This document shows positions 4,086 through 14,599 of a DNA stretch of 14,599 nt, one piece after another; position 1 is the first letter of the stretch; the number at the start of each line of letters is the position of its first letter. Where the stretch lies: assembly GCF_946482535.1 (NCBI RefSeq), contig NZ_CAMLRU010000057.1:1-14599 (forward strand), read 5' to 3'. The position numbers and the translations under genes were made by a program. The stretch is from an uncultured Flavobacterium sp. Lineage in GTDB: Bacteria; Bacteroidota; Bacteroidia; Flavobacteriales; Flavobacteriaceae. Under the pieces are notes generated by a model. It did not search any database. It was given only the letters and a program-made list of their open reading frames with translations, and was not told the origin of the DNA.

Positions 4086-4303
4086 GACAATTTATGCAAT
4101 TTTCGGCTATTGATACAAACTGATTTTTACCCTTAAAACAGCATAAATAATCATCTTTTTTTTACAACAATTATTGATTTATCAAGAAAAAATAATCTGT
4201 GAACGGTAAAAAACTATCGTTGAAATACATGTTTTTTTAAATCGTAAAATACTGCTAATAAGGCATTTACACATATGAAACTTGTTGAAAGGAGTATAAA
4301 AAC
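4086..4303. other. AT-rich intergenic stretch between divergent transcription units
   Basis: This is the upstream half of the 365-base gap between the TPR gene and the first large surface-protein gene. It is very AT-rich with several A and T runs and has no credible coding frame. One small imperfect hairpin is present: 4202-4208 pairs with 4215-4221 (six Watson-Crick pairs plus one G-T) around a 6-base loop. No counterpart was found at the same position upstream of the second surface-protein gene, so I assign it no function. Confidence 0.5.
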
Positions 4304-4337
4304 ACCTAAAAAGTTGCAGTTAATCGACTTTTGAGGT
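4304..4337 (+). promoter_or_regulatory. Inverted repeat upstream of surface-protein gene 1 (candidate operator)
   Basis: Arms ACCTAAAAAG (4304-4313) and CTTTTGAGGT (4328-4337) pair in 9 of 10 positions (A4308/G4333 fails); bases TTG/CGA just inside can extend the stem. The centre lies 99.5 bases before the ATG at 4420 and the repeat ends 40 bases before the -7 box. The same structure, at the same distance, precedes the second surface-protein gene (9647-9680). Three arm positions differ between the copies as complementary pairs. The position upstream of the core promoter suits a site for a dimeric activator; no terminator function is needed here because the upstream gene is divergent. Confidence 0.6.
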
Positions 4338-4422
4338 TATACAACTAAAAATAATACCATCTATAGACACCCACTCTAAATTTGTAGAAGTATTAACGGA
4401 GTTTAAAATTCATCGCCCTATG
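4319..4422 (+). repeat. Shared promoter/leader block, copy 1
   Basis: This 104-base block ending with the ATG aligns without gaps to 9662-9765. By hand count 87 of 104 bases match. The best conserved parts are TTATACAACTAA (4338-4349), TAAATTTGTA around the -7 box, and the last 24 bases before the ATG, which contain GAGTTTAAAATTCAT and GCCCT with only one change. Similarity largely fades after the start codon, so the conserved unit is regulatory rather than a recent whole-gene duplication. Confidence 0.8.
4377..4384 (+). promoter_or_regulatory. Candidate -7 box of surface-protein gene 1
   Basis: TAAATTTG matches the Bacteroidota -7 consensus TAnnTTTG exactly and sits 35 bases before the ATG, giving a short leader of about 30 bases. 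No TTTG is present near -33. A promoter without that element would be expected to need an activator, which fits the inverted repeat further upstream. Confidence 0.6.
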
Positions 4423-7400
4423 AAAAAAAACTACTTACAATCAGAGATTAATTTATTGCTAGAATTATTTTTATCGAAAAAATATATCCTACTTCTGGCA
4501 ACGCTTTTACTTTTGGTAAGCGAATCCTCATCTGCCCAAACAGCCGGGCCTAATAATTCCGGTAGTGGTACTTTTATTGCCGGAGCTAATTTAGATTGGA
4601 CAACACCCGGAAACATCACTAATACTTCCGATGCCAGTTATGCAACCGCTGTTTTTGCCATGGCCGGTAACACCGATAATCTTTTGGGAAAAAATTATGG
4701 TTTTACAATACCTAACAATGCCATTATTAATGGTATCGTATTAACCGTAAACAGAAGAACTAATGCAATCAATGGCGGAAGAATTACCCGAGACAATGTA
4801 GTAAGTTTGGTAAAAGGCGGTGTAGTAACCGGAAACAATAAAGCGGTAGCTACAGCTTACGGCACAACTTTTTCAGTTGCTACATACGGTTCATCAACCG
4901 ACACTTGGGGAACTACTTGGACACCTGCAGACATCAATGATGTTAATTTCGGCGCAGTAATTTCGGTTAACGCAAACAACAGCTTAACCGCTACTGTAGA
5001 TTACCTCAGAATTACCATTCATTATACAACTATTGGATTGTCAACCACAAACGCTTGTGAAGGCTCTAATGCTTCGGTAATAATTACCGGAAATTATATC
5101 GCCGGTAGCACCGCTGTTAGTTTTAACGGAACCTCGGCTTCTTTTGTTCAAAACAGCAATACTCAAGTGACTGCAACCTTACCAAACGGAGCAACTTCTG
5201 GAACCATTTCCCTGACTACTCCACAGGGAACCGCTACAAGTTCAGCTACCTTCATGCTAAATCCGCTTCCTGCATTGGATGTGATTACGGGAAATACCAG
5301 TGTATGTGCCGGAGCATCAACCACGCTTTCAAATACTACATTAGGGGGTAATTGGAGCTCTGCTTCTCCTTCCATAGCAACCATTAACAATTCCGGAATA
5401 GTAAGCGGTATTGCCGGCGGAAACACTATTATAACTTATACCTATACTGATGGCAATAGTTGTTCTAATTCGGCTACAACTTCGGTAACCGTTAATGCCG
5501 CACCTTTAGTTACTGCACCAAACAGCGTTTGTATGGGAAGCAGCATACAACTCTCTCCAAATACAGGAGGAAATTGGATAAGCAACAATACTAATATCGC
5601 TACTATAGACAACAGCGGATTGGTAACGGCTTTAGATTATGGCGATGTAACTTTTACTTTTACCGACAATACAACAACATGTTCTAATACCACAAATACT
5701 GTAGTAGTCCCACAGCCTATGGCCATTACAACACAACCGGCTGTAAGTCAAACTATTTGTGAAAACAATTTGGTTGCACTTTCGGTAATTGCTAGCGGAG
5801 ATAACTTGTCTTATCAATGGTTTAAGGGTGCTACTGCTCTTATCAACGGTGGAAATATTTCCGGTGTTACAACGCCAAATCTAAATTTTAATTTAATTAC
5901 TGCTGCCGATTCTGCTGCTGATTACCACTGCGTTATCAGTAATGGTTGTGATACCGATTTATCTTCTGATAATGCTGCCATAACAGTAAACGAGCAAAGT
6001 GTTGGAGGAACAGCTTCTATTTCTTTACCAAATGTAACGCCGGTGGTAAGAACAACTACTATTTGTCATTTTGGATCCGGAAGTATTTATTTAAGCGGTC
6101 ATATCGGAAGTGTTATTCGTTGGGAATCTACCACAAACGGTGGATTAACTTGGATACCCATTGCCAACACTACAGACACCTTAAACTACAATAACATAAC
6201 GCAAACTACTTTCTACAGAGCGGTAGTTCAAAATGGCGCTTCTTGTAATCTGGCTTACTCCTATGTAGCTTTAGTAGATGTTATACCCAATATCAGACCT
6301 ACTCCTGTTACTGCAACACCACAAACAATTTGTATCGGAGGTTCATCGGTATTATATTCTGAAAGCGGTTTTGCTACCAGTTCTTATATTGCAGAAGGCG
6401 GAACTTTTAGTAACGCGAATCCTGACAATTGGTTAGTTGACGGTTGTGGCAACTGTTTAAATGCCGGTGGTAGTAATACTACTGAGGGACCATTCAGATT
6501 GAGCGCCACTAACGGCGGAACTTATTCAGGGATTAATTATGCCTCAATGGGAAAATTTGCTATCGCCAACGGGAATTATAATTCTATCATGCAAACGCCA
6601 ATTTTTAACACCTATGGATTGACTACTGCAGAATTGAGTTTTAATCATGCCTTCAATTTACAAGCAGGAGCCTCAGTTTCTGTGGAATTATCATTGGATG
6701 GTGGCGCAACTTATACCGTAGTACTTGCTTCCTTTACAGGACCAAGCACCAGAAATCCATACAATGCTTTTCCTAACCAAACAATCGATTTAAGCAATTA
6801 TATTGGACAGCCTAATTTAAGAGTTCGCTTTGTATACAACGGAACAGTTAACAGTTCATGGGCTATTGACAATATTTTAATCCCTGAATCACCGGCCAAT
6901 TTGACAACGCAATGGATTGATTCTATAACCGGAGAAGTTATCAGTACCACAGCCACAGCTACAGTTAGCCCAACTGTAACTACAACTTATGCGGTAACTT
7001 CTTATTTAAATGGTTGCACCAGTTATGGCCCGGAAGGAACAACCTATATCACAGTGACTGTAAACGAGAGACCAACCGCCAATATTGGTCCGTCACAAAC
7101 CATCTGCTTAGGTAATCCAGCCACTTTTAGTGTTGCCCTAACCGGTTCGGCACCATGGAGCATCACTTACAGTAATGGCTCTACTACCACAACGGTTAAC
7201 AACATCAACACCAATCCGTATGTATTTAATGTTAATGGAATCACCACCAACAGAACTTTTACCATTACGGCTTTGAGTGATTCAAAATGTATTGCAAATT
7301 CAACAGACATAACCGGAGCAGCCGTTGTTACTGTTTTAAACGGAACACCCGGTTTGTGGACAGGTATGATTAGTAACGATTGGTTTGATTGTAAAAATTG

Positions 7401-9447
7401 GGCCGGTGGTATGCCTTCAGCGACTATCAATGCTCAAATTCCGGCGGGTGTTGTAAGAATGCCTGTTATTGATCCTTCAACCTCAAGTTTCGCAGCTTTA
7501 TACGGTAACATTGCCAGAGCTCAAGATGTGATTATTGCTAACACAGCTTCTTTAACAATGACTGCTAATTCAGATTTATATGTAAGCCGAGACTGGAAAA
7601 ACAGCGGAACATTTTTACCCGGAACAGGAACGGTAACTTTCAACAGCTCGACAGCAAATCAAATTCAAACCATTAACGCTGGAATCAATACCAACGAAAC
7701 ATTCTATAATTTAACCCTCAACAATTCAAACTCTGCCAAAGGAATCAGTTTGGTTAACGGTTTTGAGTTGACTGTAGAGAATAATTTATCATTACTAAGC
7801 GGTGATTTACGCTTAACAGGCGAAGCTCAGTTAGTACAAAACGGAACGACTGCCAATCCGTCAAGCGGAACCGGAAGACTATTAAAAGACCAACAAGGAA
7901 CCCAAAGCAGCTACCACTATAACTACTGGTCTTCTCCGGTTACGACTAATGGAATTAACTACAACGTTAGCAGTGTTTTAAGAGATGGTTCTGACTCAGC
8001 AACCAATCCTTTCAATCCAAGTGTGTTAAACTTTGGTGCCGATATAAATTTTGCGGATGGTGCTTTGACCTTTCCGGCAAAATTAAGTACCGGATGGATG
8101 TATAAATTTACCAGCCTAAGTTCATCTTATGCCGGATGGCAACACATTGGAGAAAACGGAACGGTGAATCCTGCGGAAGGTTTCACCATGAAAGGACCAA
8201 CAGGGACAGGATCGGCTTTTGCGGAGCAGAATTATGTTTTTGTCGGTAAACCAAATAATGGAACTATTGGAATAAACATTGGTTTAAATCAGTCTTATCT
8301 TGTTGGAAACCCTTATCCTTCTGCTCTGGATGCTGATGAATTCATCAAAGATAACATTAAAGACGGAGATGGTAGAGCAGCCAGTAACATCTTTAACGGT
8401 GCCTTGTATTTCTGGGATCATTTTGGCGGACAATCTCACATTCTGAATCAATATGTAGGAGGTTATGCAACTTATACTTTGATGGGTGGTGTTGTGGCTT
8501 TATCAAACGATCCTCTAACTGCTAACAACGGAAGCAGCGGTACAAAAACTCCTAAAAGACACATCGCTGTAGCACAAGGATTTTTCATCGGAACAGGCTC
8601 AAGCAGTGACTTGGGAACTAATAATCCTAATTTAAGCACACCGGTTACCGGAGGAACAATTACCTTCAAAAATAGCCAGCGCGCCTTTAAAACAGAGTCT
8701 GTTGCCAACTCCGTATTTTTCAGAAATCAAAGTGGCTCTCAAAATGTTGATACGGTAAACGATGACAGACAAAAAATCAGATTGATTTTCGAATCACCAA
8801 ACCAAACCTACAGACAAATTTTAGTAGGGGTTGATCAAAATGCCACCAACTCATTCGACATAGGTTATGACGCTCCAATGATTGAACAAAACCCGGATGA
8901 TTTATATTGGAATATCAACGACGGAAAATATACCATCCAAGCCGTTTCCAATTTCAATACTAATCAAATCATTCCAATCGGACTTAAAACGTCAATAGAA
9001 GGATTGAGCATTATAAAAATAGGCGGTTTAGAAAATATTGCCGAATCGACCGAGATTTACATCCATGACGGAGAAACCGGAATTGACTACAACATAAGAA
9101 ACAGTGATTTCACCATGGCATTACCTATCGGTGAATATAACAATAGATTTTCATTGCGTTTTTCAGGTCAATCCTTAGGAACTAACAATCCTATTGAAAC
9201 TAACCCGATTATTTATTTCACTAATAATGACAGCAGCTTGAATATATCAAATCAAAATTTAAATTTGAATTTAAAATCCGTAAGCCTTTTTAATTTGTTG
9301 GGACAATTAATTGCGACATACAATCTTGAAAACACTAATCAACAAAACATAAGAATTCCAATTTTGAACTTGGCAAATGGAACTTATATTGTAAAAGTTG
9401 CAACGGACACAACTAAAAATTTCAGCCAAAAAATTCTGAAAAATTAA
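4420..9447 (+). CDS. Giant T9SS-secreted multi-domain surface protein (adhesin-like)
   Basis: A 1675-aa secreted protein. Residues 1-40 form a signal peptide with a long n-region, a hydrophobic core (ILLLATLLLLV) and a likely cut near SSAQ. Domains, by eye: 41-205, a beta-sandwich found in many environmental secreted proteins; 206-283, IPT/TIG-like; 286-430, two Ig-like modules with Cys in SVC and the BIG_2-like pattern IATINNSGIVSG; 431-527 and 528-627, two more Ig-like modules; 628-885, an Ig-like module interrupted by a jelly-roll domain (about 648-823, ending WAIDNILI); 888-975, another Ig-like module; 976-1165, a repetitive beta region starting GLWTG and CKNW; YNYWSSP (1167-1173) and a beta-rich region; 1450-1585, a beta domain; and about 1600-1675, a type A T9SS sorting domain (LFNLLGQ, GTYIVKV, terminal KILKN). 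This predicts export by Sec, then T9SS, then attachment to the surface or release. No catalytic motif was recognised. Adhesion or matrix function is inferred. Confidence 0.87.
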   Translation: MKKNYLQSEINLLLELFLSKKYILLLATLLLLVSESSSAQTAGPNNSGSGTFIAGANLDWTTPGNITNTSDASYATAVFAMAGNTDNLLGKNYGFTIPNNAIINGIVLTVNRRTNAINGGRITRDNVVSLVKGGVVTGNNKAVATAYGTTFSVATYGSSTDTWGTTWTPADINDVNFGAVISVNANNSLTATVDYLRITIHYTTIGLSTTNACEGSNASVIITGNYIAGSTAVSFNGTSASFVQNSNTQVTATLPNGATSGTISLTTPQGTATSSATFMLNPLPALDVITGNTSVCAGASTTLSNTTLGGNWSSASPSIATINNSGIVSGIAGGNTIITYTYTDGNSCSNSATTSVTVNAAPLVTAPNSVCMGSSIQLSPNTGGNWISNNTNIATIDNSGLVTALDYGDVTFTFTDNTTTCSNTTNTVVVPQPMAITTQPAVSQTICENNLVALSVIASGDNLSYQWFKGATALINGGNISGVTTPNLNFNLITAADSAADYHCVISNGCDTDLSSDNAAITVNEQSVGGTASISLPNVTPVVRTTTICHFGSGSIYLSGHIGSVIRWESTTNGGLTWIPIANTTDTLNYNNITQTTFYRAVVQNGASCNLAYSYVALVDVIPNIRPTPVTATPQTICIGGSSVLYSESGFATSSYIAEGGTFSNANPDNWLVDGCGNCLNAGGSNTTEGPFRLSATNGGTYSGINYASMGKFAIANGNYNSIMQTPIFNTYGLTTAELSFNHAFNLQAGASVSVELSLDGGATYTVVLASFTGPSTRNPYNAFPNQTIDLSNYIGQPNLRVRFVYNGTVNSSWAIDNILIPESPANLTTQWIDSITGEVISTTATATVSPTVTTTYAVTSYLNGCTSYGPEGTTYITVTVNERPTANIGPSQTICLGNPATFSVALTGSAPWSITYSNGSTTTTVNNINTNPYVFNVNGITTNRTFTITALSDSKCIANSTDITGAAVVTVLNGTPGLWTGMISNDWFDCKNWAGGMPSATINAQIPAGVVRMPVIDPSTSSFAALYGNIARAQDVIIANTASLTMTANSDLYVSRDWKNSGTFLPGTGTVTFNSSTANQIQTINAGINTNETFYNLTLNNSNSAKGISLVNGFELTVENNLSLLSGDLRLTGEAQLVQNGTTANPSSGTGRLLKDQQGTQSSYHYNYWSSPVTTNGINYNVSSVLRDGSDSATNPFNPSVLNFGADINFADGALTFPAKLSTGWMYKFTSLSSSYAGWQHIGENGTVNPAEGFTMKGPTGTGSAFAEQNYVFVGKPNNGTIGINIGLNQSYLVGNPYPSALDADEFIKDNIKDGDGRAASNIFNGALYFWDHFGGQSHILNQYVGGYATYTLMGGVVALSNDPLTANNGSSGTKTPKRHIAVAQGFFIGTGSSSDLGTNNPNLSTPVTGGTITFKNSQRAFKTESVANSVFFRNQSGSQNVDTVNDDRQKIRLIFESPNQTYRQILVGVDQNATNSFDIGYDAPMIEQNPDDLYWNINDGKYTIQAVSNFNTNQIIPIGLKTSIEGLSIIKIGGLENIAESTEIYIHDGETGIDYNIRNSDFTMALPIGEYNNRFSLRFSGQSLGTNNPIETNPIIYFTNNDSSLNISNQNLNLNLKSVSLFNLLGQLIATYNLENTNQQNIRIPILNLANGTYIVKVATDTTKNFSQKILKN

Positions 9448-9479
9448 ACCTTATTTAAAATAAGAATATTACCAGAAAG

Positions 9480-9507
9480 GCGCTCAATTTAGAGCGCTTT
9501 TTCTTTT
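9480..9507 (+). terminator. Intrinsic terminator of surface-protein gene 1
   Basis: GCGCTC (9480-9485), loop AATTTA, then GAGCGC (9492-9497) form a perfect 6-bp GC-rich stem, followed by TTTTTCTTTT. It starts 33 bases after the stop at 9447. It separates the two large genes into independent transcription units, consistent with each having its own promoter block. Confidence 0.88.
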
Positions 9508-9646
9508 AAAATTATCTGTTCGTCAAACAAAAAAAGGGAATAAAAAGCATTCTTAAAATATCATTTTTACAAAAACACAAACCTCTGTTTTTAAAATACT
9601 TATACAGAAAAAACACTTACAAAACATACCGCAATTCTGTGATAAT
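9508..9646. other. AT-rich spacer between the two surface-protein genes
   Basis: No coding frame, RNA gene or clear structure is visible here. It is rich in A runs. Short stretches loosely resemble the region before the first gene's inverted repeat, but not well enough to align with confidence. Confidence 0.45.
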
Positions 9647-9680
9647 ACTCCAAAAAATGTCGTTAATCGATTTTTGGAGT
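9647..9680 (+). promoter_or_regulatory. Inverted repeat upstream of surface-protein gene 2 (candidate operator)
   Basis: Arms ACTCCAAAAA (9647-9656) and TTTTTGGAGT (9671-9680) are a perfect 10-bp inverted repeat with a 14-base centre. The centre is 99.5 bases before the ATG at 9763, the same as in the first gene. Relative to 4304-4337, the pairs C-G/T-A, T-A/C-G and G-C/A-T have changed on both sides together, and the mismatch in copy 1 is a C-G pair here. No T-run follows the right arm, and a better terminator already lies at 9480-9507, so a regulatory role is more likely than termination. Confidence 0.62.
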
Positions 9681-9765
9681 TATACAACTAAGAATTATAC
9701 AATCTATTGACCATCACTTTAAATTTGTATAAGCATCAGCTGAGTTTAAAATTCATAGCCCTATG
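9662..9765 (+). repeat. Shared promoter/leader block, copy 2
   Basis: Gap-free partner of 4319-4422 (87 of 104 bases identical by hand count), ending with the ATG at 9763-9765. The conserved parts are the same as in copy 1: the centre of the inverted repeat, TTATACAACTAA, the -7 region and the bases just before the start codon. Confidence 0.8.
9720..9727 (+). promoter_or_regulatory. Candidate -7 box of surface-protein gene 2
   Basis: TAAATTTG, identical to the -7 box of the first surface-protein gene and at the same distance (35 bases) from its ATG. No TTTG lies at the -33 position; a TTG at 9707-9709 is only 10 bases away and badly spaced. Confidence 0.6.
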
Positions 9766-12700
9766 GAAAATACTTACACTTTGAAGTCCGTCTCTTTTCT
9801 CAATATAAAAATTGTAACAACGTTACTATTGCTTCTTGCAATATCTTCTCTTAAAGCACAATCCCCTACTATTTTTACAACATCGGGTACATGGGTTTGT
9901 CCTCAAGGAGTAACCTCAATCCAAGTAGAAGCTTGGGGTGGCGGTGGCGGTGGCGGTGGCGCTGCGAATGGAACCGGATACAGAGGTGCCGGCGGCGGCG
10001 GCGGTGCTTATCAAAAAATAGTGTCTTTAGCCGTAACACCCGGACAAAGCTATACCGTAACCATTGGCAGTGGCGGAGTAGCAGGAACAATTAGTGCCAA
10101 CGGAGGCTCGGGCGGAAACACAACTTTTTCACAAGGCGCAACAACATTATTTACTGCAAATGGCGGGAGCGGTGGTCAAACACAAACTACAGCTACAGCA
10201 CCAACTGCCGGTATTGGAGGAATCGGCCTCTTTAATGGCGGAAATGGCTTTATTGGAACTACAACAACAGGCGGCGGTGGCGGTGGTAGCGCCGGATCAA
10301 CTTCAAACGGAACTACTGCAATCAATGCAACGGGTGGTGCTGCCGGAACCGGCGGAACCGGAACCGGTGGCGCTGGAGGAGCTTGTGGAGGCGGAGCCGG
10401 TGGCGAAGGTTGCCCGGGAGTCAATTATGGCGGCGGTGGCGGCGGTGGTAATAAAAATAAAGTTGGTGGTGCAGGTGCCGGAGGTTATATGAAAATTACT
10501 TTTACCTGTCCTTCTAACACCATAGCAGCGGCTGGTCCTGATCAATCATTATCTTGTGCAACATCAGCCACATTAGCCGGAAATACGCCGACTTTAGGAA
10601 CAGGAACATGGACAGTGGTGAGCGGAACAGCTACAATCACCTCTCCGAATTCACCCACTTCAACCGTTACGGGCTTAATCGTTGGGAGTTCTGCTACTTT
10701 ACGATGGACCATTGATAACGGGAGATGCGGAAGTACATTTGATGACGTTATAATCAGCACCCCAATTGGTATTGGTTGTTGGACTTATTGTACAGCCAAT
10801 GCTACCAATGTCTATGCAATTTCCTCTGTAAGTTTTAATACTATAAATAATGCTGTTGTCGGAACTACGGGTTATGAAAACTTCACTTCGCTTTCAACCA
10901 CATTAACCGCAGGATACACTTATACTATTTCGGTAAATGTAATTGGAGCCAATGGCAATCCTGCCTACACCAGTGTATGGTTTGATTGGAACAATAACGG
11001 TACATTTGATGTAGGAGAAGAATCTCAATTAGGCACTTACTCTACCGGAACATATGCTTTTACTACTTCCATAACTGTCCCACTTAATGCGGTTGTCGGC
11101 TCTACAAGAATGAGAGTAATAAACCGAATCCTAACCGGTTATCCACCGGCTTGTGGCACTATTACCTATGGCCAAATTGAGGATTACACGCTTAATATTG
11201 TAGCGCCTCCGGCTTGTACTACCCCAACAGCGCAACCCACAGCATTGGTTTTATCTCCAAGCGGAACGTCTTTAGCCGGAAGTTTTACAGCTGCATCACC
11301 GGCCCCAAATAATTACTTAGTAGTTATCAATACAACCGGAACAATTCCAACTCCAACCAATGGAGCTACTTATACAATAGGAAGCGCAATTACAGGCGGT
11401 ACCGTAGTTGATATCGACAGCAATACTAGTTTTGTCGCTAACGGGCTTACCGTTTCAACCGTCTACCACATTTTTGTTTTTTCGTATAATTCCATCTGCA
11501 CCGGCACACCATTATATCTGAGTACAAGTCCGCTAAGCGCCAGCACTACAACTTTGGCCACCAGTTATTGTATTCCGACAGGAAGTTTAGACTGTGCAAC
11601 CAATGGTGATTATATTGCCAATGTTACCTTTAACACTTTAAACAACAGCAGTATTTGCGCTCCCGGCGGTTATATTAATTATGCTGCTTCGGCAGGACAA
11701 ACAACAACTTTATTGAGAGGAAATACTTTTAATTTAAGCATTAGCACCGGACCGGGGAACAAAAAACATGGTGCTGCAGTTTGGATTGACTTTAACCAAA
11801 ACGGTTCATTTGCAGATGCCGGTGAATATTTTTTGATTGGAAATAACATCATCGCTAATTCAACCAATACCGTTGCTATTGCTATTCCGGCTGGCGCTAC
11901 TTTAGGCCAAACCCGTATGAGAATCAGATATGCCCAAAGAGTTACCATAACCTCCGCCATGAGTTGTACAATGACCGGTAGTTTCGGAGAAACGGAAGAT
12001 TACACTGTTACCATTGCCAACTCTGTAGTTTGCGTTGCACCAACCATACAGCCAACCGCCTTAATTTTAAGCCCAACCGGCACAACAATTTCAGGAAGTT
12101 TTACAGCTGCAGATCCGGCGCCCAACAATTATTTGGTAGTCATCAATACGACAGGAACTGTGCCAACTCCATCTAACGGAACAACTTATACGGTAGGCGG
12201 TGCAATTACCGGCGGAACTGTGGTTGACATAGATTCTAACACCACATTTACAGCGACTTCTTTAACCACGCTTACAACTTATTATTTCTTTGTTTTTGCT
12301 TATAATTCCATTTGTACCGGTGGGCCAACTTATAATTTAGTCAGTCCGTTAACCGGAAATGTGGCAACCATAACTTCAAACTACTGTACTCCATCAGTGA
12401 CGACAGGAAGAGAAGATGATGACTATCTTACTGAAGTTAGTTTCGTAGGAACCTTAAATGATGTTTCCAATTATTCAACCTATTCCTCAAGCCCTTCAGG
12501 CTATCAGGATTTTACAGGCTTGGCCAACTTATCTCGTCAGGCTCAAGGCGAAGGGGTGAATATCTCCGTACAGGCCTTGTATTCCTCATTCATGAAAGCT
12601 TGGGTTGACTGGAACAAAGACGGAACTTTTGACAACACTACTGAAATTGTATACAATTCCGGAACAATCTCAACGGGGTCAACTACGTTTGGATTTATCA

Positions 12701-14599
12701 TCCCTTCAGGTCAGGCTTTAGGAAATTATCGTCTCAGAATCCGAATCGATTTAAACGGCGGAATGGGCTCAACCACTTTTAACTCTTGCGGCAACCTTAA
12801 TAACGGAGGAGAAACAGAAGATTATTTATTTACCGTTGTGGCAAAATGTAATGCCATAATTACAGGAATAACAGAGGGAAGAACTTGTGGACCGGGTACA
12901 GTAGCTTTAGAAGCCACCAGCTCTGTAGTTGTACCGGCAGTCACAGAATTCAGATGGTACACAACACCTACCGGTTCAACATTAGCAGGAACTACCAGTA
13001 GCGGAAGTTGGACTACTCCATCCATCAATACAACCACTAATTATTATGTAACGGCCTATAACGGTTGCGAATCATTAACCAGAACCGAAATTTCGGCTAT
13101 TGTAAGCCCAATCCCTAACCTGACTTATTTCCCTCAAAACCCAATTTCTTGCGGAGAAAATGTTGGTGTTGAATTGTCTGCTACCGGAGATGTAGAAGAA
13201 GTCTATTTAATCAACGAGGAATTCAATTCAGGATTAGGCACTTTTACAAACACCAATATTACTTCGAGTGTTAGAGATGCCAATACACAATGGCAAAACA
13301 GAACCAGTACTTATATTCCAACTGCTATATCCGGAACCAATACTTGGTATCCGGCAATTTCTTCCGGTATTAACGGCGATGGATTTGCTATGGCTACTTC
13401 TGATTTTGCGGATGCATTTCCTTATGTTCAAAATCAAATCGCTTCCTCAGCGGTAAGTACGGTGAACTTTACCAGTCTCACCTTAAGCTTAAGAATGTTT
13501 TATTCCAGATATTTCATGGATGGTGCCTATCCTGCAGAAGAATATGTGACCATAGACGTTTCCACCAATAATGGAGTCAATTGGATTGAAATAAAGCGAT
13601 TCACTGAAGATGTCGGAATTGGAACTAAATTTCAAGATCTGACTTATGATTTATCCGCTTATGTAGGTGTAAGTCAGTTTAAGGTGAGAGTAAGATATTA
13701 CAACAACAACTGGTGTGACGGAATTGCCATAGATGATGTACAATTGTTCGGAAACCGTCCTAATGTCAATTTGAATTGGACCACTACAATACCAGCATTT
13801 ACCGATGTTGCTTGTACAATTCCTTACGACCCGTTAACCACGGCAGCGGTTATTTATGTACAGCCGACATTAGCTCAATTACAAGTGACTAGTTTTAATT
13901 TTACTGTGAATGCTGTTTTGGATAATGGTTGTGTAACTTCAAAAGTAATAACCGTAACCAACAATACTAAAATTTGGAACGGAACAGATTCCTATTGGGA
14001 TGATGACGAAAACTGGATGCCATTGGGTAAACCAACAGCCAGCAGCTGTATTGTAATTCCGGATACTTCCGTAGACCCTATAATTTCCGGCAGTAGTTAT
14101 GATGCCTTCGGAAAAAACATTACTGTTAAAACCGGTGCCAGCCTTATAATAGAGCCTGTAAATAACCTCACCATTACTGATGAAGTTACTGTAAAATCGG
14201 GTGCTGTATTTGACATTCAAAATAACGCCAGTTTGATACAAATCAATGATGCAGCTGTCAATTCCGGAAGTATTAAAATGACACGAACTACGCGTCCGAT
14301 GACTCGATGGGCTTACGTGTATTGGGGTTCTCCAATTGTTGAAGACGCTTACAGCCAAATTCCAACCGAGTTTGACTATAAATTTGTTTGGCAATCAGGT
14401 ACCTCAACAGGAACTTGGTTAGGTTTATCATCCGTTTCACCGGGAAGTGGTTTTATTGCCAGAGTTCGTGATATTGCTCCTTTCAGTACCGGAACAGGCA
14501 CCATCGATTTTGCTTTTAACGGAACACCGGGCAATGGTACCGTAAACGTGGCGGTTGACAGTTTTGATTCCAGTTCAATGGTAGCCGGAAATACGGTTT
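9763..14599 (+). CDS. Giant secreted surface protein with Gly-rich, GEVED and FnIII-like modules (partial, C-terminus missing)
   Basis: Reading from ATG 9763 stays open to the right edge: 1612 residues with no stop. Residues 1-33 are a signal peptide (core TTLLLLLAI, likely cut near KAQ). Domains, by eye: 34-250, a glycine-rich domain (entry SGTWVCPQGVTSIQVEAWG, close to the Gly_rich_2 type); 251-335, Ig-like; 337-480, 602-752 and 874-1027, three GEVED domains, each with an Asp/Asn loop such as FDWNNNGTFDVGEE (407-420) and an EDY end (QIEDY, GETEDY, GETEDY); 485-600 and 757-872, two FnIII-like modules; 1028-1110, Ig-like; about 1111-1400, an Ig-like module interrupted by a jelly-roll domain (about 1150-1330, ending IAIDDVQLFG); and from 1404 a region starting IWNG and ENW, with YVYWGSP at 1518-1524. 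The GEVED loops look calcium-binding. A T9SS sorting domain is expected past the edge but is not seen. Surface adhesion or filament function is inferred. Confidence 0.85.
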   Translation, partial: MENTYTLKSVSFLNIKIVTTLLLLLAISSLKAQSPTIFTTSGTWVCPQGVTSIQVEAWGGGGGGGGAANGTGYRGAGGGGGAYQKIVSLAVTPGQSYTVTIGSGGVAGTISANGGSGGNTTFSQGATTLFTANGGSGGQTQTTATAPTAGIGGIGLFNGGNGFIGTTTTGGGGGGSAGSTSNGTTAINATGGAAGTGGTGTGGAGGACGGGAGGEGCPGVNYGGGGGGGNKNKVGGAGAGGYMKITFTCPSNTIAAAGPDQSLSCATSATLAGNTPTLGTGTWTVVSGTATITSPNSPTSTVTGLIVGSSATLRWTIDNGRCGSTFDDVIISTPIGIGCWTYCTANATNVYAISSVSFNTINNAVVGTTGYENFTSLSTTLTAGYTYTISVNVIGANGNPAYTSVWFDWNNNGTFDVGEESQLGTYSTGTYAFTTSITVPLNAVVGSTRMRVINRILTGYPPACGTITYGQIEDYTLNIVAPPACTTPTAQPTALVLSPSGTSLAGSFTAASPAPNNYLVVINTTGTIPTPTNGATYTIGSAITGGTVVDIDSNTSFVANGLTVSTVYHIFVFSYNSICTGTPLYLSTSPLSASTTTLATSYCIPTGSLDCATNGDYIANVTFNTLNNSSICAPGGYINYAASAGQTTTLLRGNTFNLSISTGPGNKKHGAAVWIDFNQNGSFADAGEYFLIGNNIIANSTNTVAIAIPAGATLGQTRMRIRYAQRVTITSAMSCTMTGSFGETEDYTVTIANSVVCVAPTIQPTALILSPTGTTISGSFTAADPAPNNYLVVINTTGTVPTPSNGTTYTVGGAITGGTVVDIDSNTTFTATSLTTLTTYYFFVFAYNSICTGGPTYNLVSPLTGNVATITSNYCTPSVTTGREDDDYLTEVSFVGTLNDVSNYSTYSSSPSGYQDFTGLANLSRQAQGEGVNISVQALYSSFMKAWVDWNKDGTFDNTTEIVYNSGTISTGSTTFGFIIPSGQALGNYRLRIRIDLNGGMGSTTFNSCGNLNNGGETEDYLFTVVAKCNAIITGITEGRTCGPGTVALEATSSVVVPAVTEFRWYTTPTGSTLAGTTSSGSWTTPSINTTTNYYVTAYNGCESLTRTEISAIVSPIPNLTYFPQNPISCGENVGVELSATGDVEEVYLINEEFNSGLGTFTNTNITSSVRDANTQWQNRTSTYIPTAISGTNTWYPAISSGINGDGFAMATSDFADAFPYVQNQIASSAVSTVNFTSLTLSLRMFYSRYFMDGAYPAEEYVTIDVSTNNGVNWIEIKRFTEDVGIGTKFQDLTYDLSAYVGVSQFKVRVRYYNNNWCDGIAIDDVQLFGNRPNVNLNWTTTIPAFTDVACTIPYDPLTTAAVIYVQPTLAQLQVTSFNFTVNAVLDNGCVTSKVITVTNNTKIWNGTDSYWDDDENWMPLGKPTASSCIVIPDTSVDPIISGSSYDAFGKNITVKTGASLIIEPVNNLTITDEVTVKSGAVFDIQNNASLIQINDAAVNSGSIKMTRTTRPMTRWAYVYWGSPIVEDAYSQIPTEFDYKFVWQSGTSTGTWLGLSSVSPGSGFIARVRDIAPFSTGTGTIDFAFNGTPGNGTVNVAVDSFDSSSMVAGNTV
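9937..9960 (+). repeat. Perfect GGTGGC hexanucleotide repeat (4 copies) in the Gly-rich domain
   Basis: Four perfect tandem copies of GGTGGC encode eight consecutive glycines. A GGC run (9991-10005) follows nearby. Copy-number changes would add or remove Gly pairs without shifting the frame, so this could vary the protein's length but would not switch it off. The surrounding 9930-10480 is much more G+C-rich than the rest of the window because of Gly codons. Confidence 0.85.
11215..11571 (+). repeat. FnIII-like module repeat, copy 1 (inside surface-protein gene 2)
   Basis: Encodes residues 485-603, from Cys to Cys. It aligns with residues 757-875 without gaps; about 81 of 119 residues match by hand count. 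The best conserved stretch is PAPNNYLVVINTTGT, followed by AITGGTVVDIDSNT and YNSICTG. Confidence 0.85.
12031..12387 (+). repeat. FnIII-like module repeat, copy 2 (inside surface-protein gene 2)
   Basis: Encodes residues 757-875, exactly 272 residues (816 bases) after copy 1. Each copy is followed by a GEVED domain, so the duplicated unit is probably FnIII-GEVED. The GEVED halves have diverged much more than the FnIII halves. Confidence 0.85.

Follow-up and report, generated by a model that had tools for sequence, protein, structure and literature searches.

To our knowledge, little is known about the regulators of T9SS surface proteins in the Flavobacteriaceae. A close described system is that of YpdB, a LytTR regulator of E. 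coli which, in the excerpted text of its description, binds the direct repeat GGCATTTCAT-N11-GGCATTTCAT, the interval being 11 bp in the oligonucleotide listed (PMC4847170). The half-site described here, with the consensus TGCATTTCATCGAT, has 9 of 10 bases and a period of 21 bp in common with that site, and the YpdB operator of the yhjX promoter, as given in the same excerpt, likewise has a half-site GCATTTCAT and two direct repeats in the promoter region (PMC4847170). The systems differ in that YpdB belongs to another phylum, whereas the operator described here has a half-site extending to ...CATCGAT, has a degenerate second half, occurs in three spacing classes and precedes mostly exported-looking targets. 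For the promoter itself, the point of comparison is the promoter map of F. psychrophilum, the available part of which gives sigma-factor motifs SM1-6 and a sigma-A promoter, TAnnTTTG, with its box at -12 to -5; the -7 box of both leaders considered here fits TAnnTTTG, and the strings 'LytT' and 'TTTCATCG' are absent from the main text of that paper in its available part (PMC9723704). Within the partly accessible open-access literature on LytTR in Flavobacterium or Bacteroidetes, F. johnsoniae, F. psychrophilum and rpsF, no description of the operator was found, nor does the accessible part of PMC10197871 hold one, and the string GCATTTCATCGA occurs there only in papers unrelated by title.

The window, by which we mean the whole stretch of 14,599 nucleotides that was analysed, is from Flavobacterium or close kin, judging by its genes: its Mpl protein is 98% identical to the counterpart in Flavobacterium sp. 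J49, and four neighbouring genes have 66-90% DNA identity to the relatives compared. It carries two giant surface-protein genes, here called A and B, the first with a C-terminal sorting domain recognised by PF18962 (31.4 bits, cut-off 27) and TIGR04183 (30.1 bits, cut-off 23). The original prediction held that these genes share a gap-free leader of 104 bases while their N-terminal domains differ, and both parts were reproduced: 4319-4422 and 9662-9765 align without gaps with 87 of 104 positions identical, and gene A has Big_2 and Por_Secre_tail, whereas gene B has first Gly_rich_2 and then GEVED and Ig_7. The features of the locus are as follows.

4195..4228, minus strand: second operator-like direct repeat, in the opposite orientation, toward the divergent TPR gene (11/13 and 8/13, 21 bp apart)
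4315..4328, plus strand: operator half-site 1 of gene A, TGCAGTTAATCGAC, 11/14 to the consensus; conserved in nine other genomes
4335..4348, plus strand: weak second half-site of gene A, at +20 bp (6/14; not significant alone)
4377..4384, plus strand: -7 box of gene A, TAAATTTG, sigma-A type; TCGA anchor at 4324, a distance of 53 bp
4389..4419, plus strand: predicted 5'UTR of gene A, its start placed from the -12 to -5 box position in the available part of PMC9723704
4420..9447, plus strand: gene A, T9SS surface protein of 1675 aa (Big_2, Por_Secre_tail)
9490..9657, plus strand: upstream part of the gene B promoter region, related to the region upstream of A in some relatives, decayed; left limit uncertain
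9658..9671, plus strand: operator half-site 1 of gene B, TGTCGTTAATCGAT (10/14)
9678..9691, plus strand: weak second half-site of gene B, at +20 bp (6/14)
9720..9727, plus strand: -7 box of gene B, TAAATTTG; TCGA anchor at 9667, a distance of 53 bp
9732..9762, plus strand: predicted 5'UTR of gene B, of the same family as that of gene A
9763..14598, plus strand: gene B, surface protein continuing past the window end (Gly_rich_2, GEVED, Ig_7)

The minus-strand repeat at 4195-4228 has a like half-site in five of the eight relatives scanned, and no -7 box was recognised within the 110 bases listed.

The likeness of the two leaders extends to the left of 4319, with the operator starting at 4315 and 9658 and a weaker similarity further upstream. 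Both window copies align with the leaders of nine other genomes over 137 columns with no gaps, apart from a small compensated shift inside the UTR of F. sedimenticola, and because the same block recurs over this length a chance likeness of the two leaders is excluded. These alignments left out F. paronense, whose gene at A's place is without this leader. The -7 box claimed for both window copies was confirmed as TAAATTTG at 4377-4384 and 9720-9727, and it stands at -43 in both and in the eight other A leaders examined, as TAAATTTG in six of those eight and as TAATTTTG and TAATTTCG in one each; the leader at gene A's place in F. paronense has no sigma-A type box at -43. Since the box is expected at -12 to -5, the predicted starts fall at 4389 and 9732, giving 5'UTRs of 31 nt and placing the operator at about -74 to -41. 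Directly before both ATGs (4420 and 9763) stands GAGTTTAAAATTCATNGCCCT, and this end of the 5'UTR is nearly invariant across ten genomes, which suggests a role at the level of the RNA. The stretches 4389-4419 and 9732-9762 are presumably untranslated, yet it is their end that hardly varies.

Coding conservation of the 5'UTR was considered and rejected on reading the alignment. The 5'UTR is open in frame with the ATG in G152, where it reads EFKIHRPM, and in G167; no third position varies over the final 21 bases, and the only two positions that do vary are first codon positions, where the change alters the residue. It had been claimed that control rather than coding sequence is conserved, and this agrees with the presence of a sigma-A type -7 box within the conserved part; we consider it likely that the shared block is a regulated promoter and not a coding remnant. 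The window gave no Rfam match at gathering thresholds, and 9640-9770 had no match in a plasmid collection.

In relatives, the leader stands before the counterpart of gene A in J49, F. terrisoli, F. sedimenticola and six further genomes, and F. paronense has a different leader at this place. A sequence model of the leader found one strong copy (92-115 bits) in each of these nine genomes, always before gene A, with next-best matches of 36 bits or less, and the UTR pattern likewise occurred exactly once per genome and solely before gene A (reversed control 0). Among 398 sampled Flavobacterium genomes, in a survey that scored only eight candidates per genome under strict filters, the strong leader was present in eight, with one copy each and none with two; three further sampled genomes have a relative of the leader, at 31-32 bits, before other large MKKNF/MKKNY/MKHFY genes. 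The suggestion that a genome-wide set of surface genes carries the same leader was not borne out by these single copies, in nine of nine relatives and in 8 of 398 sampled genomes.

What does recur is a module inside the leader, made up of a sigma-A type -7 box and the half-site, which in most cases is partly repeated after 20-21 bp. The weaker matches to the leader model lie before other families of exported-looking proteins and have the same operator at the same box distance, the distance being partly imposed by the model. The free pattern TGCANTTCATCGATTTTT, allowing at most two mismatches, matched 76 times in five genomes and its reversed control 5 times, and a two-repeat pattern with at most three mismatches gave 62 matches in 43 of 199 family genomes against none for its reversal. 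Of the 76 half-site matches 58 are non-coding, the other 18, which lie within ATG-started frames of at least 120 aa, being set aside as coding. The predicted recovery of further copies by profile, as searched in relatives, therefore divides in two: it held for the operator, which stands before many exported-protein genes, and failed for the whole leader, which is single-copy. The proposed common control circuit fares in the same way, standing for the operator inside the leader and falling for the leader as a whole, to which the outcome of a local duplication applies.

The distance between operator and box falls into classes. With the strict box TAnnTTTG, the 58 sites gave offsets of 33-34 (4), 43-44 (8) and 53 (5), against a background of 0.05 per offset; with a looser box, TAnnTTn[GA], chosen after inspection of the second set, 41 thinned sites gave 33-34 (9), 43-44 (7) and 53 (5), and a second, whole-family set of 29 sites gave 33 (8), 43-44 (8) and 53 (1), about 0.2 being expected per offset in either case. 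The figure of about 0.2 was drawn from flanks that include coding sequence, and AT-rich spacers may in truth yield more such boxes by chance. Thinning dropped N-containing and near-identical sites, keeping 41 of the 58 for box spacing and 44 for the second unit, and the second set came from the loci of 30 of the 62 two-repeat matches. With the strict box, this second set had offsets of 32-33 (5), 44 (1) and 66 (1). No box at the three spacings was present at 20 of 41 and 12 of 29 thinned sites, offsets 24, 26 and 35 also reached 3 in one set or the other, and gene A counterparts make up three of the five thinned 53-bp sites, the class to which both window copies belong. Over 44 sites the second unit had a mean match of 5.8 and 5.55 of 14 at +20 and +21, against 3.1-4.9 at the other offsets from 16 to 33, and the repeat is nearly perfect at 21 bp in L199; in the window the first half-site matches at 11/14 and 10/14 and the second at 6/14 in both copies. 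The likeness of the half-site to itself at offset 9 exceeds the repeat at 20-21, also in coding control sites.

A rough secretion rule was positive for 29 of 41 genes downstream of the operator and for 418 of 1124 background genes, the sites counted including orthologues. The 41 come from the 58 non-coding sites, 17 having no downstream frame of 60 aa in range, and one of them (L156) is mostly masked and scored negative. Six of the 12 rule-negative genes have, by eye, a leader ending SQ or AQ; the others are enolase, ribosomal protein S6, a short MPRMIYDY protein without family (twice), the masked gene and one doubtful frame. The operator probably belongs to a wider regulon of mostly exported proteins in the Flavobacteriaceae. 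The short protein, beginning MPRMIYDYTK or MSRMLYDYTK, has the operator upstream at four loci (L142, L148, L152 and L169), with a box-like sequence 66 bp from it in L142 and L148 and no Pfam or NCBIfam match for the protein of L152. In four Flavobacterium genomes (L104, L105, L106 and L108) a glycosyltransferase gene is preceded by convergent operator-like pairs, the enzyme of L108 matching NCBIfam PelF at 168 bits (cut-off 100).

The position of gene B is occupied in J49, F. terrisoli, F. sedimenticola, G123 and G269 by a gene whose leader is a different one and carries a sigma-A type box of its own, TATATTTG or TAATTTTG, at -48/-49. An alternative-sigma (SM5) box was also tried for this other leader and dropped, since TAnnTTGY was present in three of seven and the sigma-A type box at -48/-49 in five. 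The coding DNA of gene B is 80% identical to J49 over 3.6 kb (from base 43) and 76% to F. terrisoli over 2.1 kb while the leaders differ, so that the coding region would have been kept and the promoter region exchanged; against G123, G269 and F. sedimenticola the later parts of the gene alone match (67-72%). The second gene of the locus has an N-terminal part that varies strongly between species (L115, L117, L119, L001, L002, L004 and L116), and it is absent after gene A in G167 (L116).

Because five relatives have a different leader at B's place and the leader is otherwise single-copy before A, the most likely history is that, in the lineage of the window, the promoter region of gene A was copied to gene B. 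Promoter capture or gene conversion between neighbouring genes is an ordinary event, with the upstream region replaced and the coding region kept, as would be the case here; what sets this locus apart is that the likely donor is the neighbour itself and that the junction lies at the start codon. We infer the direction and route of the copy as follows. The promoter is present before gene A in ten Flavobacterium genomes and hence would be old there; in the lineage of the window, gene B would have lost the native promoter still seen in relatives, and a copy of A's promoter region would have been inserted between the terminator of gene A and the ATG of gene B, probably by recombination via the similar start codons (ATGRAAAA..TAC), with both giant surface proteins coming under one signal as the outcome.

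The sequence upstream of the block bears on the age of the copy. The B intergenic region 9448-9640, aligned with the matching region of ten A leaders, scored above all 200 shuffles for three of the ten, G246 (78), F. terrisoli (72) and J49 (71), with 0/200 shuffles as high; the window's own A scored 55 (1/200 as high) and the other six did not stand out clearly, 5 to 52% of shuffles reaching their scores. As B's upstream part fits G246, F. terrisoli and J49 better than the window's own A, the copying probably took place some time ago, or else a sister lineage was the donor. A tree of the leaders has no well supported branch and leaves the B copy unplaced relative to A, G123 and G246 (p-AU about 0.39). 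Preservation of the block from operator to ATG, while the upstream part decayed, points to a function in both copies.

Other accounts of the shared block have to be weighed against this. It could be a plain remnant of local duplication, a leader copied without regulatory meaning and bound to decay, as a single strong full copy per genome in relatives would allow; but the upstream part has decayed while the operator-to-ATG block has not, the copy retains half-site 1, the 53-bp spacing and the box, and the operator is enriched genome-wide in relatives, and we regard such a remnant as unlikely. We give no more weight to an ancient leader borne by A and B alike in their ancestor, with B's replaced in other species: this would accommodate both a tree that does not favour pairing the B copy with the window's A as sisters over other placings and the greater closeness of B's upstream part to other genomes, yet it requires one early or several replacements to give five relatives one other B leader, and 0/398 sampled genomes have two strong copies. 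Conservation might also reflect an inverted repeat, at 4304-4337 and 9647-9680, acting as a hairpin or palindromic operator. The B copy has a perfect dyad of 10 nt, four pairs are changed on both sides (13/500 shuffles as high) and the covariation score was matched by 6/500 shuffles, but the five outer pairs fail to form in 4 to 9 of the 11 sequences, paired cells amount to 70.9% against 69.7% in shuffles, and the dyad, being located before the predicted start, would be absent from a transcript made by this promoter. The dyad at the left edge of the block was rejected, its outer pairs not being kept although two covariation measures beat most shuffles, and it is very improbable as an explanation. 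The best overall explanation, which we hold with reasonable confidence, is that a promoter with a LytTR-type operator of an exported-protein regulon was copied from A to B. B-type genes joined the operator by more than one route, to judge by those of G152 and G137, in which the operator lies inside leaders unlike that of gene A.

In mechanistic terms, the copied promoter would comprise an activator operator, a second, weaker half-site 20 bp on, the box 53 bp from TCGA and the 31-nt 5'UTR. A position of about -74 to -41 is that of an upstream activator, so activation rather than repression seems the likelier mode, and spacing steps of 10 bp would fit a protein that faces the polymerase on one side of the helix. 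A LytTR-type response regulator is the most likely protein to bind the operator, and the one encoded beside rpsF is the best candidate. Among the LytTR genes examined in five genomes (29 of 34 matches), the operator was upstream of only the five beside rpsF (5/29, at most four mismatches), and in all five genomes the lytTR-rpsF intergenic region has three repeats, which are conserved although the sequence that follows them diverges. The encoded protein has Response_reg and LytTR domains, as do BtsR/YpdB-type regulators (NCBIfam NF008677), and its best NCBIfam model is BtsR, but at 120 bits it is under the cut-off of 246 and is therefore not a BtsR. The repeats point toward rpsF in the five Flavobacterium genomes and mostly toward lytTR in others. 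Across the family, in a survey of the best-scoring 30 loci of the 168 genomes with a protein match, including one locus from G001 and one with only 14 nt upstream, a related repeat block lies in the same place, with a score reached by at most 5% of shuffles, which kept base content only, at 20 of 29 loci and not at the other nine. All 43 genomes with the two-repeat pattern have a match to the rpsF-adjacent LytTR protein (E at most 1e-40; one only 6e-45); in the full set of 199 the figure is 168, but many of those for which no match was listed are small.

That another regulator reads the operator, either a different LytTR protein or a member of another family using 21-bp direct repeats, is quite conceivable. 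Other LytTR genes are also conserved among the five genomes, and autoregulation of the rpsF-adjacent gene is circumstantial as an argument. Against this, the site lies upstream of the five rpsF-adjacent orthologues alone among the LytTR genes examined, and the related repeat block recurs at lytTR-rpsF in other family genomes too. The rpsF-adjacent regulator remains our best candidate.

Taken furthest, and rather tentatively, these comparisons could describe a circuit common to the Flavobacteriaceae, in which a highly conserved LytTR regulator beside rpsF would control much of the exported surface proteome, and itself, through phased operators 33, 43 or 53 bp from the -7 box. Such a circuit would tie renewal of the cell surface to ribosome production, and surface genes would join it by capturing the promoter of a neighbour. 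The window itself suggests that an existing circuit can gain a surface gene when one neighbour captures the promoter of another, and the operator-bearing promoter copy makes an unstudied control circuit testable. With an operator, a spacing rule and a candidate regulator, the regulation of T9SS surface proteins becomes open to a simple test.
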